From IMG/VR virus record IMGVR_UViG_3300042868_005645, positions 1 to 55,223 of that record: a DNA stretch of 55,223 nt, one strand, 5' to 3'. This document shows positions 8,076-32,144 of the stretch, one piece after another (the stretch's first letter is position 1; every line of letters starts with the position of its first letter). Both the position numbers and the translations under genes were made by a program. The notes beneath the pieces are model-generated. The model was not told where the DNA came from, did not search any database, and worked only from the letters and a program-made list of their open reading frames with translations. The stretch is from a virus.

Positions 8076-8208
8076 ACTTGATTGGTTTGTTTTGGGTTTG
8101 GCCATAGGTTTATTTTGGCTTCCAGTTTGGCGAATTGGCAAACGAATTGTGGAAGAAGCCAAAATAGCCAAAAAAGAATGGCGACAACCTGTTGACAAAG
8201 ACCGCTGA
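8062..8208 (+). CDS. Small membrane protein, 48 aa (GTG start)
   Basis: Starts at GTG 8062 inside the end of the upstream gene. It encodes a hydrophobic segment (WFVLGLAIGLFWLPVW) followed by a basic helix. The start codon is uncertain because a TTG also lies upstream. Its end overlaps the -35 of the rIIA promoter. Confidence 0.45.
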   Translation: MEWTKLDWFVLGLAIGLFWLPVWRIGKRIVEEAKIAKKEWRQPVDKDR

Positions 8209-8220
8209 TGGTTGTATAAT
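8192..8220 (+). promoter_or_regulatory. Consensus sigma70 promoter for rIIA
   Basis: TTGACA (8192-8197), 17 bp, TATAAT (8215-8220), all exact. The gene starts 38 bp downstream with AGAGGG as ribosome site. Confidence 0.85.
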
Positions 8221-8257
8221 AATACTATTGCAACAACACACACAGAGGGCGACACAC

Positions 8258-10420
8258 ATGATTTTGAACACTGCACCGCAAGACCAAGCAATCCTTTCTA
8301 ACGTGGGCGAGATTGGCGAGTTCCGTATCCGTAACTCAGCCAAAGCCTTTAACATCCTTTCTTCAGGACTGTATGCAAACAAGATTCGTGCTATCATTCG
8401 CGAACTGAGTTGCAACGCTGTGGACAGTCACACAGCATCTGGCAAACAAGATACTCCGTTTGACATTCATTTGCCAAATCAGTTGGAGCCTTGGTTCAGC
8501 ATTCGCGACTATGGTACAGGACTTAATCATGAACAAGTCACCAGCATCTACACCACATACTTTGAGTCCACTAAGACTAATAGCAATGATTTTATTGGTG
8601 CCCTTGGTCTTGGTTCTAAGTCTCCATTTAGTTATACGGATAACTTCACCGTAACTGCTATCCGCGACAACGTCAAAGGTATCTACACTGCCTTTATCAA
8701 TGATCAAGGTGTTCCTAGTATTGCATTGATGACCAAAGAAGAGACGGCAGAACCTTCCGGTGTTGAAATCAAATTCAGCGTCAGTGACCGATATGACTTC
8801 TCTAAGTTTCAAGACGAAGCACGTCAAGTCTATACCTATTTTAAACTGCGCCCAGTGGTAGCCGGTGCAAACAGTTTCCAGTTCCGCGATGTAAAATATG
8901 ACACCCAAGATATTATTCCTGGTGTTCACAGTTACCAAGATAGTCAACGTAGTGTTGCCGTCATGGGTAATATTGCCTATCCTATCGAAGTGCCTAATGC
9001 AGACCAAACACTCGGTGACCTGCGTGGCTTGCTGAACTGCGGTTTGGAGTTGCACTTTGCCATTGGCGACTTGGACTTCCAAGCAAGTCGTGAAGGCTTG
9101 AGTTACATTCCACAAACAGTCAACAGCATCAAACGCAAGTTGGAAGCATTGAACGCACAATTGGCCACGCACCTTGCCCAAGAAGCAGATACCATTGCCA
9201 ATCTGTGGGATCGTGCCTTGTTCCTCCAAAGCAAGCATCGCATGGGTCTGTGGACTGCGGCTGTGAAAAAGTATGTGGCAGACACTAAACTGTCTACGTT
9301 TGACGACAACCGTTATGGTGGCACCAAGACTTTTAAGATGCCCATCGACGAACTTGCTAAGAAGTATAACATTGCAATTCGCGGTTTTAACTATGCCAAG
9401 CACAGCAAAGCATATCCTAACCGCAAGCATGAAACAGAATACAACGACAAGAAGAATGCCGCGGGTCATTACGAGCATACTATCTATTGGGGCTTTACTG
9501 TAGAAAAACATGTACAGTTCATTGCCAACGACACCAATGTTGGTGCTGTTGAACGTGCTAAGTTTCACTACCGTACTACCAAGCCAGATAACAGCACCAC
9601 AGTGTTTGTTCTTGAAAAGGCAAACAAAGCCAAGGATATGAACTTGAAGGCATTCTTCAAAGCCATTTCCAATCCTCCGCAGGCCACTATCGTCAATGCC
9701 AGCACACTGGAAAAGAAGGAACGTGCTGACAGTGGTCTGGGTAAGAACGTTACCATCCTTGCACTGCAAGAACGTGGTAGCGGTGGCTACTACCGTGAGA
9801 AAGAAATGGTTTGGCGTGATGCAGGCAAGGCCGATAGTTTTGACGCCGCTCAAACTTATTACTACTTGCCTTTGAGTGGCTTTGAAGTTCAAAGCAAGCA
9901 CGGTTCAATTGATGTTAAACAGTTCTACAACGACTTGAAAGACTGTGGATTGAAAGGTCTCCAAACTACCATTTATGGTGTGCGTAAAGGCGACATTGAG
10001 TTTATCCGTACACAAACTAATTGGGTCAACATCGAAGACCATGTTGCCAATGAATTGGCCAAGCCTATCGATAACAAACTTGTTATGAGTTTGGTGTTGT
10101 ATGCTGTTGACAGTTTTAACTTGTTGCAATATAATAGCAACATCGTCTCCGCAGTAACTAATCCTGTTAGTCCTTACACTAAATTGGTAACACAGTTTAA
10201 AGGCTTTGACAAGATCAAGTACAGCGAAGTGAGTTTGAAGCGTTTGTGCAATCGTTATGCTCAAGGTGTAACGTTCAATCCAGAAGCACAAGTTCAAAAA
10301 TTTGTTGATGGATGCTCTGACATCAGCAAACGATATCCGTTGTTGCAGTTCTTGCGTTCTGCACCTAACAGTGATGTAGCAGAGTATATTAATTTGATCG
10401 ACACACAGAAAGGTGTTTAA
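8258..10420 (+). CDS. rIIA: rIIA-like protein (GHKL ATPase)
   Basis: At 720 aa this is close to T4 rIIA (about 725). The N-terminal GHKL/HATPase fold is clear: N-box IRELSCNAVDSH at 46-57, DYGTGL at 84-89 and GALGLGSKSPFSY at 114-126. In T4, rIIA and rIIB are early membrane-associated proteins that protect the infection from prophage Rex exclusion and affect lysis timing. I placed the start at ATG 8258 rather than upstream because the upstream frame overlaps the promoter. It is directly followed by rIIB, as in T4. The ATP lid and metal-binding residues look intact. Confidence 0.9.
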   Translation: MILNTAPQDQAILSNVGEIGEFRIRNSAKAFNILSSGLYANKIRAIIRELSCNAVDSHTASGKQDTPFDIHLPNQLEPWFSIRDYGTGLNHEQVTSIYTTYFESTKTNSNDFIGALGLGSKSPFSYTDNFTVTAIRDNVKGIYTAFINDQGVPSIALMTKEETAEPSGVEIKFSVSDRYDFSKFQDEARQVYTYFKLRPVVAGANSFQFRDVKYDTQDIIPGVHSYQDSQRSVAVMGNIAYPIEVPNADQTLGDLRGLLNCGLELHFAIGDLDFQASREGLSYIPQTVNSIKRKLEALNAQLATHLAQEADTIANLWDRALFLQSKHRMGLWTAAVKKYVADTKLSTFDDNRYGGTKTFKMPIDELAKKYNIAIRGFNYAKHSKAYPNRKHETEYNDKKNAAGHYEHTIYWGFTVEKHVQFIANDTNVGAVERAKFHYRTTKPDNSTTVFVLEKANKAKDMNLKAFFKAISNPPQATIVNASTLEKKERADSGLGKNVTILALQERGSGGYYREKEMVWRDAGKADSFDAAQTYYYLPLSGFEVQSKHGSIDVKQFYNDLKDCGLKGLQTTIYGVRKGDIEFIRTQTNWVNIEDHVANELAKPIDNKLVMSLVLYAVDSFNLLQYNSNIVSAVTNPVSPYTKLVTQFKGFDKIKYSEVSLKRLCNRYAQGVTFNPEAQVQKFVDGCSDISKRYPLLQFLRSAPNSDVAEYINLIDTQKGV

Positions 10421-28596: not shown

Positions 28597-29325
28597 ATGC
28601 TAATCAACGAGTTTACTGTAGAATCTCCCACCGAGTTTAGTCTAAACACGGCTGTGGTATTTCATAAAGAACTAAACCCTAAAATATTCTCTAATGAGAG
28701 AATGAATCCCGACATACGTCAAGGCTTGCTAAAAATAGCAGATCACTTTCAAGAATTTATTGGTGTCAAGTTAGATATTGTGGACATCACAGTCAGCGGA
28801 TCTAATGCGGCTTTCAGTTATACAGAATACAGCGATTTAGATCTACACCTAGTAGTACAAGTTCCCAACACTGCGGAGTACAAGGAACTACTTGATGCCA
28901 AGAAAAATGTATATAATGCTAGACATGACATCAAAGTAAAAGGCATAGATGTTGAACTATATGCACAAGATGTAGATCAAGAACATCACAGCCTGGGAAT
29001 TTACAGTGTGCTTAAAAACACATGGGTGAGTAGACCAGAGCGAGTAAGTGTTGAGATTGACAGCGGTGATGTCAAAGATAAGTATAAAAATTACAGAGAT
29101 AGACTTGCAGTTGTACTAGGCAATGACGAACTAGAAGTAGCAACAGCGACCTGGGACGACCTTAAAAGAATGCGTAAAGCAGGACTAGAAAAATCTGGCG
29201 AATTCAGCACAGAAAATATAGTTTATAAAATGCTTCGCAATCAAAAATGGATCGAACGTTTACAGGATCATATCTCTAATTTACAAGATCAAGAACTAAG
29301 TATCGAACAGAGGACAATGCAATGA
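28597..29325 (+). CDS. Nucleotidyltransferase-fold protein with tag-like N-terminus
   Basis: 242 aa. The polymerase-beta-type nucleotidyltransferase signature GS...DxD is clear: G68-S69 and D80/D82 in YSDLDLHLVV; a third acidic residue, possibly in IDVELYA, completes the site. Such enzymes add nucleotides to RNA, proteins or small molecules. The N-terminus MLINEFTVESP matches the shared tag, so it might be packaged and injected, as ADP-ribosyltransferase Alt is in T4 (inference). It heads an operon of tagged small proteins. Confidence 0.7.
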   Translation: MLINEFTVESPTEFSLNTAVVFHKELNPKIFSNERMNPDIRQGLLKIADHFQEFIGVKLDIVDITVSGSNAAFSYTEYSDLDLHLVVQVPNTAEYKELLDAKKNVYNARHDIKVKGIDVELYAQDVDQEHHSLGIYSVLKNTWVSRPERVSVEIDSGDVKDKYKNYRDRLAVVLGNDELEVATATWDDLKRMRKAGLEKSGEFSTENIVYKMLRNQKWIERLQDHISNLQDQELSIEQRTMQ

Positions 29326-30201: not shown

Positions 30202-31095
30202 ATGCGAATTACAGAATTTCACAAACCAATAACAGCACACGCACTAAATGAAAGTGCAGAAAAAACCTTCGGGCAAAAACTAAACTTAGAAAGTTTTAGC
30301 ATGGAACAGTTAGAAGATGCACGTAACAAGTTACGTACAAAACTCTACCAATTTGAAAACACAGAAGGCTTTAATGCTGTGCATGAAAATGATTCATATG
30401 CTAAGAACAAACTATTTTTAGATGTTCTAAATCAAGAGATTGTAGAACGCGAAGCAAGCATCAACGAAAGTTCATTCACAGCAATGGAACAGTTGGTGCT
30501 GGATAAAGTAGAAGAAGGCATCATTGACTTTGAATCTCTACCAGAAGAATTACAGGCCAAGGTAAGACAAGTTCACGAAAACCAGTCAACAGACGAAGAC
30601 ATGTTGGCCGAAGGCGAAGAAGAAAAAGCAGAATTCATTATGTCTGCACGTGACATGGCTGATCGTATCACAGGTTGGATGGAAGACACAGCCAACATGC
30701 AGGCTGAAAATATGTTAAAACTAGTAGACGCGATACGCGATGAATTAGGCGCGGACACTGCCATGGAGTTTGAAAGCATTATCAAGCCAGCCCTAGCAAC
30801 TGTCTATACAGCATTAGAAAGTTCACGTCAACAATTAAATCAAGGTGTTGGTTTGTTAACAGGAGAAGGCGGCGCTGAAGACATGATGGGTGCAGACCCT
30901 AGCATGGACATTGGCGCAGAAGAAATGCCGGACGATCAAGGCATGACTCCTGATGATTTAGATGCAGAACCCACTGACGAGTTTGGAGCAGCCGCTCCGG
31001 CAGCAGGCGGTGATGAAGTAGCAGGTCGTGCCAAGCGTGAGTCAATTGACTACAGCCGCAGACTAGCCAGCATCCTAGCACCAAAAAAAAAGTAA
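30202..31095 (+). CDS. Acidic late protein, possible prohead core/scaffold, 297 aa
   Basis: Starts MRITEFHKPITAHALNES: shared tag, with L-N-E/S as a possible protease site at 15-18. The body is acidic and helical (EDMLAEGEEEKAEF), then Gly/Met/Asp/Ala-rich (GAEEMPDDQGMTPDDLD), and it ends SRRLASILAPKKK. Composition resembles prohead core proteins of T4-like phages. The last codons form the slippery sequence A-AAA-AAG directly before the TAA; the -1 frame continues for 111 codons. Confidence 0.65.
   Translation: MRITEFHKPITAHALNESAEKTFGQKLNLESFSMEQLEDARNKLRTKLYQFENTEGFNAVHENDSYAKNKLFLDVLNQEIVEREASINESSFTAMEQLVLDKVEEGIIDFESLPEELQAKVRQVHENQSTDEDMLAEGEEEKAEFIMSARDMADRITGWMEDTANMQAENMLKLVDAIRDELGADTAMEFESIIKPALATVYTALESSRQQLNQGVGLLTGEGGAEDMMGADPSMDIGAEEMPDDQGMTPDDLDAEPTDEFGAAAPAAGGDEVAGRAKRESIDYSRRLASILAPKKK
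31086..31092 (+). other. Putative -1 frameshift site (A AAA AAG)
   Basis: Nine A followed by G (31083-31092) end the 30202 gene as AAA-AAA-AAG-TAA. A-AAA-AAG in this register is the dnaX slippery heptamer. The -1 frame is open through 31427. A 7-bp stem (CGGCAGG near 31138-31144 with CCTGCCG near 31164-31171) lies about 46 bases downstream, rather far for a stimulator. A homopolymer indel error would look the same. Confidence 0.6.
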
Positions 31096-31427
31096 CAGAG
31101 TCTGAACAAAAACTTAATCTAGTATTAAAGCAACTCATCGGCAGGGCAGATCAAAAAGGTCGTCCTGCCGTTTTCACCTGGGACGAGTTAAACAAGTTCA
31201 TGCAAAACATGGGCATGGAAGATTTCAGTTATGATTCTTTCAAACTAGCCTATGACAACGATTCAGTGATCCAATCACTGACAAACAACTTTGATCAAAA
31301 CGGTGTTGAACTACAGACCAAAGCACAGAACGATGAAAAACGTCGTGCTGTAGAAAAAGAAAAAGGCGCTAACGTTGTTAGTCAAATGGCAAAAAGCGCC
31401 ACCAAACGAGCCATGGCAGATAGTTGA
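31092..31427 (+). CDS. -1 frame extension of the 30202 protein, 111 aa
   Basis: The frame has no ATG, GTG or TTG between the slippery site and the ATG at 31200, and that ATG has no Shine-Dalgarno, yet the residues before it read as ordinary protein (TESEQKLNLVLKQLIGRAD, KGRPAVFTWDELNKF). The domain continues through SYDSFKLAYDNDSVIQSLTN to a basic helix (SQMAKSATKRAMADS). It is therefore best read as the C-terminal part of a 408-residue fusion. The alternative is a separate 75-residue protein from 31200. Confidence 0.6.
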   Translation, partial: VTESEQKLNLVLKQLIGRADQKGRPAVFTWDELNKFMQNMGMEDFSYDSFKLAYDNDSVIQSLTNNFDQNGVELQTKAQNDEKRRAVEKEKGANVVSQMAKSATKRAMADS

Positions 31428-31452
31428 CAGTTAAGTAATAAACTGTTATAAT
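31424..31452 (+). promoter_or_regulatory. Consensus sigma70 promoter, leaderless gene
   Basis: TTGACA (31424-31429), 17 bp, TATAAT (31447-31452). The ATG follows 5 bp after the -10, so the expected transcript start falls on the start codon. Confidence 0.8.
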
Positions 31453-31457
31453 AAGCC

Positions 31458-32144
31458 ATGACTCTATTACAACAAAGATATACTTACGCCAAATTATCAA
31501 GAGATGAATCGCAGGGCAAGAGGCTTTATGCTTGTCCTGACGGTTCTAAAGTCCCTAGTGTGACCACCATACTAGATAAAACTAAACCCGCTGAATCCCG
31601 TCTTGCACTAGCCAATTGGAAAAAAGCCGTTGGCGAAGTTAAAGCACAGGAAATTGTCACAGAAGCAGCCAGTCGCGGAACTAGGATGCACACCTACTTG
31701 GAAAACTACATCAAAGGTGAGCCTCTCAAAGAAACTGTAACTAACCCATATGCCCAACAAAGTCTAGACATGGCTAAGATTGTGGTTGCGCAGGGATTTC
31801 CCAAGATCAAGGAAGTATGGGGTAGTGAAGTACCTTTGTACTTTCCAGAATTGTACGCAGGAACCACAGACTGTGTGGGCATACATGATGGCGATGAAAG
31901 TATCCTGGACTTTAAACAAACCAACAAGCCTAAGAAACTAGAGTGGATTGACGACTACTTTCTGCAACTCACAGCCTACGCCCTAGCACACAACGAAATA
32001 CACGGCACCAACATTCGCAAGGGTGTTATTCTAATGTGTAGCAAAGACTATGCATATCAAGAGTTTATCCTAGAACCCAAGGACTTTGACTATTGGACAA
32101 ATCGATGGTGCGACAGGGTTAGTGAATACTACAGACTAGCATAA
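31458..32144 (+). CDS. RecB/Cas4-like PD-(D/E)XK exonuclease
   Basis: 228 aa with the ordered motifs of the family: RGTRMHTYLE (73-82, the conserved His), GTTD (135-138), ILDFKQ (149-154, D151 and K153) and a QLTAYALAHN helix (160-169). No iron-sulfur cysteine cluster is visible. T4-like marine phages carry such nucleases for DNA processing or host DNA breakdown. Predicted leaderless from a perfect sigma70 promoter. Confidence 0.8.
   Translation: MTLLQQRYTYAKLSRDESQGKRLYACPDGSKVPSVTTILDKTKPAESRLALANWKKAVGEVKAQEIVTEAASRGTRMHTYLENYIKGEPLKETVTNPYAQQSLDMAKIVVAQGFPKIKEVWGSEVPLYFPELYAGTTDCVGIHDGDESILDFKQTNKPKKLEWIDDYFLQLTAYALAHNEIHGTNIRKGVILMCSKDYAYQEFILEPKDFDYWTNRWCDRVSEYYRLA

Follow-up and report, generated by a model that had tools for sequence, protein, structure and literature searches.

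Uncultured jumbo phages related to RaK2 and GAP32 were found to end the gene of a putative virion protein, P1, on a run of adenines that adjoins the stop codon. By comparison of their genomes, programmed −1 ribosomal frameshifting at this run probably produces P1 together with a minority P1-P2 fusion, a reading to which we give a probability of about 0.78. The window, the whole stretch of DNA that was analysed, is an IMG/VR virus record of 55,223 bases, with the region of the slip site at 30202-31427 on the + strand. The following features are located there or directly downstream.

30202..31095, + strand: P1, zero-frame gene of 297 aa, homologue of the virion proteins RaK2 ORF135, GAP32_293 and CBB_298.
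31083..31091, + strand: A9 run, forming two overlapping −1 slippery heptamers with the next G.
31093..31095, + strand: zero-frame TAA stop, adjoining the slippery codon.
31092..31427, + strand: P2, a −1-frame stretch of 111 codons (VTESEQK...MADS, TGA at 31425-31427), with a predicted winged-helix-like fold.
31139..31170, + strand: RNA hairpin of 13 bp, 46 nt 3' of the slip site, which in the window's subclade may act as a distal stimulator.
31458..32144, + strand: downstream exonuclease gene (phrog_298), a synteny marker common to RaK2/GAP32-type phages.

In the window, the 3' end of P1 reads GCA CCA AAA AAA AAG TAA. The first heptamer, A_AAA_AAA, covers 31083-31089 and the second, A_AAA_AAG, covers 31086-31092, with the TAA following at 31093-31095. 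A preliminary description of this DNA had placed A_AAA_AAG in −1 register at the end of P1 and had described the −1 frame as open for 111 codons and startless through codon 36. Both statements are correct, the earliest ATG, GTG or TTG of the P2 frame being the ATG at 31200 (codon 37). Internal initiation at this ATG was considered and rejected, as it would truncate the winged-helix domain and the codon is not conserved across the clade. Only one A9 run is present on the + strand of the window, with about 1.5 expected over 55 kb under a first-order model. Since a lone A9 is no more than this simple model predicts, the case was built on comparison.

IMG/VR was searched with P1 and P2 for close relatives and subsequently with a P1 profile for distant ones, by which 133 relatives were found and 80 kept. 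All close relatives have P2 in −1 relative to P1, and their P1 gene ends in CCA AAA AAA AAG TAA, except in L013 (A10 then TAA) and L016. The preliminary description had proposed to look for the slippery site in relatives, and it proved conserved: 57 of the 63 distinct IMG/VR loci have an A-run with P2 in −1, two have A11 with P2 in +1/−2 and four are without A-run. P1 identity among the A-run loci falls to about 40%, and these 59 loci form 52, 40 and 20 clusters at 95, 85 and 75% P1 identity, respectively. A heptamer in the right register (A_AAA_AAG, A_AAA_AAA or A_AAA_AAC) was identified in 57 of the 59. In every −1 locus the slippery codon is immediately followed by a stop (TAA, once TAG), with the exception of L098, in which one GTT codon is inserted between the two. 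In a pattern scan demanding only A6G, the run was A9 in 36 of 37 matches (27 A9 and one A8 in one subclade, nine out of nine A9 in the window's own) and A10G in none, which indicates that nine A's are kept and that the length giving a plain fusion is absent. No in-frame plain P1-P2 fusion was found among the related loci examined, and no related loci were found in microbial genome contigs. The slip arrangement is conserved across a deep clade, to an extent exceeding chance.

The P2 frame itself is maintained as protein. Values of dN/dS from 0.03 to 0.30 were obtained in 15 out of 15 comparable pairs, one further pair being saturated, and stop codons abound in the two other frames of this stretch. 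In the −1 frame, purifying selection acts on P2, whose conservation begins right at the slip codon.

Hairpins 3' of the site were found in several subclades. The usual spacing of a stimulatory 3' structure in −1 frameshifting is 5-9 nt. The L054-type subclade has a stem of 9 bp that begins 8 nt 3' of the slippery codon. Over 26 sequences, 97.4% of its cells are paired and four pairs have changed on both sides, and its covariation score lies above those of all 500 shuffles and every slid control. A second subclade contains an unrelated stem, CCCUUAGU/ACUAAGGG, at variable spacing, and L007, L013 and L014, from the window's wider group, each carry a hairpin of their own 3' of the site. Spacing in the subclades other than the L054-type and the window's is approximately 7-20 nt. 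The window's subclade has no strong hairpin adjacent to the site and a strong one 46 nt off, in the window CGGCAGGGC-A-GAUC/GGUC-GUCCUGCCG at 31139-31170. This distal hairpin shows one compensatory pair and modest shuffle support (64 of 500), and the 93-nt region containing it has a z of −3.3. An intrinsic terminator was considered for it and rejected, as none was called by the scan and only four U's follow. A comparison with known RNA families gave no match apart from one below threshold.

Synonymous differences point to the same region of the RNA. In the window's subclade they amount to 0.12 in codons 294-326, with limits set post hoc, versus 0.39 elsewhere. These codons span the slip site to just beyond the hairpin and tie for the lowest of 376 windows of 33 codons; the column-shuffle p-values for this dip ignore relatedness and neighbour effects and are therefore not exact. 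In the L054-type subclade the dip is limited to the adjacent hairpin. The constraint at the RNA level thus tracks the position of the hairpin, and this is the main reason why the ribosomal route is favoured.

Under −1 ribosomal frameshifting, most ribosomes would terminate at the TAA after ...APKKK and release P1 (297 aa), while a minority would slip one base back on A_AAA_AAG, or on the overlapping A_AAA_AAA, with the aid of the downstream RNA hairpin, and continue to the end of P2 (408 aa). The two forms of 297 and 408 aa had been suggested in the preliminary description, and the conservation of the site, the P2 frame and the hairpin supports a slippery site that would yield them. The fusion would consist of P1 with a C-terminal winged-helix-like domain and, presumably as the minority form, would be built into the particle. 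From the sequences, we infer that slippage occurs and that it is mainly ribosomal.

Transcriptional slippage, in which the polymerase slips on A9 and some A10 mRNAs are read through into P2, would give the same products and may contribute, although as the main route it seems rather improbable. A homopolymer of about nine or more residues conserved in length is expected of such slippage, and this is what is found. Conservation extends over all nine A's, the first of which is the third base of the Pro or Ser codon in front and lies outside the A_AAA_AAG heptamer; a Ser at this position is always TCA in the 59 listed sites, a codon making up 24% of the Ser codons in these genes. L098 holds its nine A's in another register. 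This conservation beyond the heptamer counts against the preferred ribosomal explanation, but the ninth A also creates the second slippery heptamer, so that the length of the run does not decide between ribosome and polymerase. The lack of a Shine-Dalgarno-like stimulator 5' of the site and, in the window's subclade, the 46-nt distance of the strong hairpin likewise weaken that explanation. Also to be set against it is a sister subclade (L092, L109 and L137-L142), for which transcriptional slippage is no worse an explanation. Its run reads AAA AAA AAA AGT AAC... after TCA (A11) or TCC (A10), P2 lies in +1/−2 and the zero frame ends in KKKSNRSH, an arrangement that is stable across six or more contigs. 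Since a plain −1 shift would hit a stop in this group, −2, +1 or transcriptional slippage is required, and an mRNA losing one A would serve it directly. On the other hand, the 3' hairpin is still untranscribed while the polymerase is on the run, so covarying hairpins and the synonymous constraint would be unexpected if slippage were transcriptional.

A separate P2 gene, on which ribosomes would reinitiate past the P1 stop at a non-standard start codon, is very unlikely. Separate P2 genes with their own ATG do exist, in the cultured relatives and in five contigs without A-run (L016, L131, L134, L135 and L149), where the ATG is located at or near the P1 stop, and in L051-L053, L058, L081 and L086 an ATG in the P2 frame overlaps the TAA. 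An unfused P2 is evidently possible, as in L016 and the cultured relatives, and this speaks against the frameshifting explanation. However, the window and most relatives have no ATG, GTG or TTG in the P2 frame near the stop, P2 is conserved from the slip codon onward, and a need for restarting would not preserve A9. The preliminary description had regarded relatives with a start for a separate downstream gene as contrary evidence; in this clade a separate P2 ATG was found only where the A-run is missing. The pattern is either/or, an A-run or an own start codon for P2. In two of the loci with an own start the frame extends past the usual end of P2, to 207 aa at the contig end in L016 (4855-5475) and to 463 aa in L131 (2986-4374). 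A quick tree of P1, rooted on the cultured phages, requires two changes of slip state, for which the simplest account is a single gain plus a reversion to an own start in L016; with the root on long branches, this history is only a sketch.

An assembly or sequencing error, by which the true run would be A10 with a plain 408-aa fusion, as the preliminary description had envisaged, or P2 would have decayed, can be practically dismissed: homopolymers are error-prone, but nine A's recur in independent contigs from many separate metagenomes (seven of them, L007-L012 and L019, from one virus) with the stop always adjoining, A10G is absent and P2 is under purifying selection.

A broader interpretation is offered tentatively, as one that we consider possible and would not bet on: a poly-A recoding switch across the clade, in which A9 in the main lineages would give −1 by ribosomal and polymerase slippage, A10/A11 in a sister lineage would give +1/−2 and loss of the run would lead to an own start. 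Throughout, one virion protein would receive the winged helix in limited supply and never by plain fusion.

Cultured relatives give an indication of the role of both proteins. Protein searches against them returned distant matches only for P1 and none directly for P2, and P2 in cultured phages was reached via Vibrio phage 2.275.O, which shares the P1-P2-exonuclease part and has P2 as a separate gene. The order P1-P2-exonuclease-NrdA is common to GAP32, RaK2, XaC1, BF, XbC2 and CBB. P1 was matched to GAP32_293 (phmmer 3e-6; hhalign 94%) and to phrog_14154, annotated as virion structural (E 5.7e-10). For P2 and GAP32_294 the first, earlier profile comparison was weak; with 39 sequences hhalign gave 68% (E 5e-5), and this score, the gene order and a shared secondary-structure pattern make homology likely, not certain. 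RaK2 ORF135/136, GAP32_293/294 and CBB_298/299 would be the homologous pair, in the same order beside the exonuclease and NrdA. The window's clade differs from these phages, in which the pair consists of two genes, each with its own ATG and without A-run (GAP32_294, CBB_299 and RaK2 ORF136 for P2). The RaK2 and GAP32 records label both homologues as virion structural, and mass spectrometry of CBB virions detected CBB_298 with 10 unique peptides and CBB_299 with two (PMC5259590, Table 4).

Downstream of P2, a perfect sigma-70-type promoter match (TTGACA-17-TATAAT, 12/12, TG before the −10) at 31424-31452 overlaps the P2 stop, and TTGACA/TATAAT-like spacing is also found 3' of P2 in close relatives. 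The exonuclease ATG at 31458 is about 5 bases past the −10 box, so the exonuclease mRNA may be leaderless. Elsewhere in the window, a large rIIA-like gene is located at 8192-10420 (phrog_612, E 2e-129), and the long ORF on the opposite strand is probably spurious.

The prediction for P1 shows long helices, a disordered acidic segment at residues 228-280 and, at the C-terminus, a helix that ends in LAPKKK. Its fold matches proteins of uncultured phages and, weakly, proteins of RaK2 and Atu_ph07. P2 is predicted to be winged-helix-like (pLDDT 77), its elements being a helix, a strand, two further helices and a wing of two strands. Among solved structures, the top matches to P2 include winged-helix domains (that of MCM8) and subunits of JetABC, none with a significant E-value. 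Sequence domain searches yielded nothing convincing for P1 in Pfam, nothing for P1 or P2 in PDB and nothing for P2 in PHROGs. The suggestion that P1 is a prohead core protein found no support here. Neither Pfam nor the PDB yielded a match to it, its homologues belong to the virion, and RaK2 has a different gene, gp092, for its prohead protease/core; this gene and the capsid gene gp094 lie some 40 ORFs from ORF135/136 (PMC3622015). As a guess from its predicted fold, P2 might occupy a restricted number of P1 sites in the virion and perhaps contact DNA or another virion protein.

Past about residue 130, P1 of L002 and L013 has an inserted module of some 40 aa, APEGWEGTVKAMKKH..IDNPYALAH.MK.KGYKSHKKES, which is lacking in P1 of the window. 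Four nearby genes of the window (at 28597, 29322, 29537 and 30202) open alike, with MLINEF, MRIDEL, MRLNEL and MRITEF. P2 proteins with an own start begin similarly (MRITEV, MKLFDL, MKLFEV, MKIYEV), and frameshifted P2 is without such a start. The common N-terminal peptide could be a sorting or cleavage signal.

The site had been called dnaX-type, a name that holds for the A_AAA_AAG heptamer, common to this site and to E. coli dnaX (tau/gamma), and less so for the stimulators. A 3' hairpin is present in many members here, although in the window's subclade the strong one is 46 nt away, and the 5' Shine-Dalgarno stimulator found about 10 nt upstream in the dnaX type is absent (none in 59 A-run sites). 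The genes are unrelated, and the frameshift product is the shorter form in E. coli and the longer one here. The dnaX run of Thermus thermophilus is also A9. To our knowledge its slippage does not depend on a 3' hairpin, whereas here 3' hairpins are conserved. Transcriptional slippage on this long A run, a feature likewise present here, gives Thermus thermophilus a mix of two products (PMC5009743). In some bacteria the dnaX layout is reversed, with the stop directly after the site, as in these phages (Atkins 2016, PMC5009743).

Among phages, the capsid genes of T7/T3 (10A/10B), A2 and a Listeria phage likewise combine a short virion protein with a minority frameshift form extended at the C-terminus. 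They differ in that P1 is not the major capsid protein and that the predicted extension is winged-helix-like, not Ig-like. T7 gene 10 has a distant 3' element (PMC5009743). The tail assembly chaperone gpG/gpGT of lambda is similar in that it gains a domain by a −1 shift close to the 3' end of the gene, and in phage tail chaperones the direction varies between −1, −2 and +1 (PMC5009743). However, the next gene here encodes an exonuclease and not the tape measure, and gpG/gpGT leave the particle whereas the homologues of P1 and P2 were found in virions. A literature search found no paper on such a frameshift in RaK2-like jumbo phages. Once tail chaperones and Ig-domain extensions of capsid and tail proteins are set aside, we know of only a few virion genes of phages in which a frameshift is conserved.

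In these genomes P2 will be overlooked or cut short by automatic gene callers. The natural variants, with an own start in place of the A-run, an altered direction or moved and rebuilt hairpins, span a diverse uncultured clade, which may thus serve as a natural system for studying how one kind of slippage, ribosomal or transcriptional, takes the place of the other. The frameshift would tie P1 and P2 functionally.
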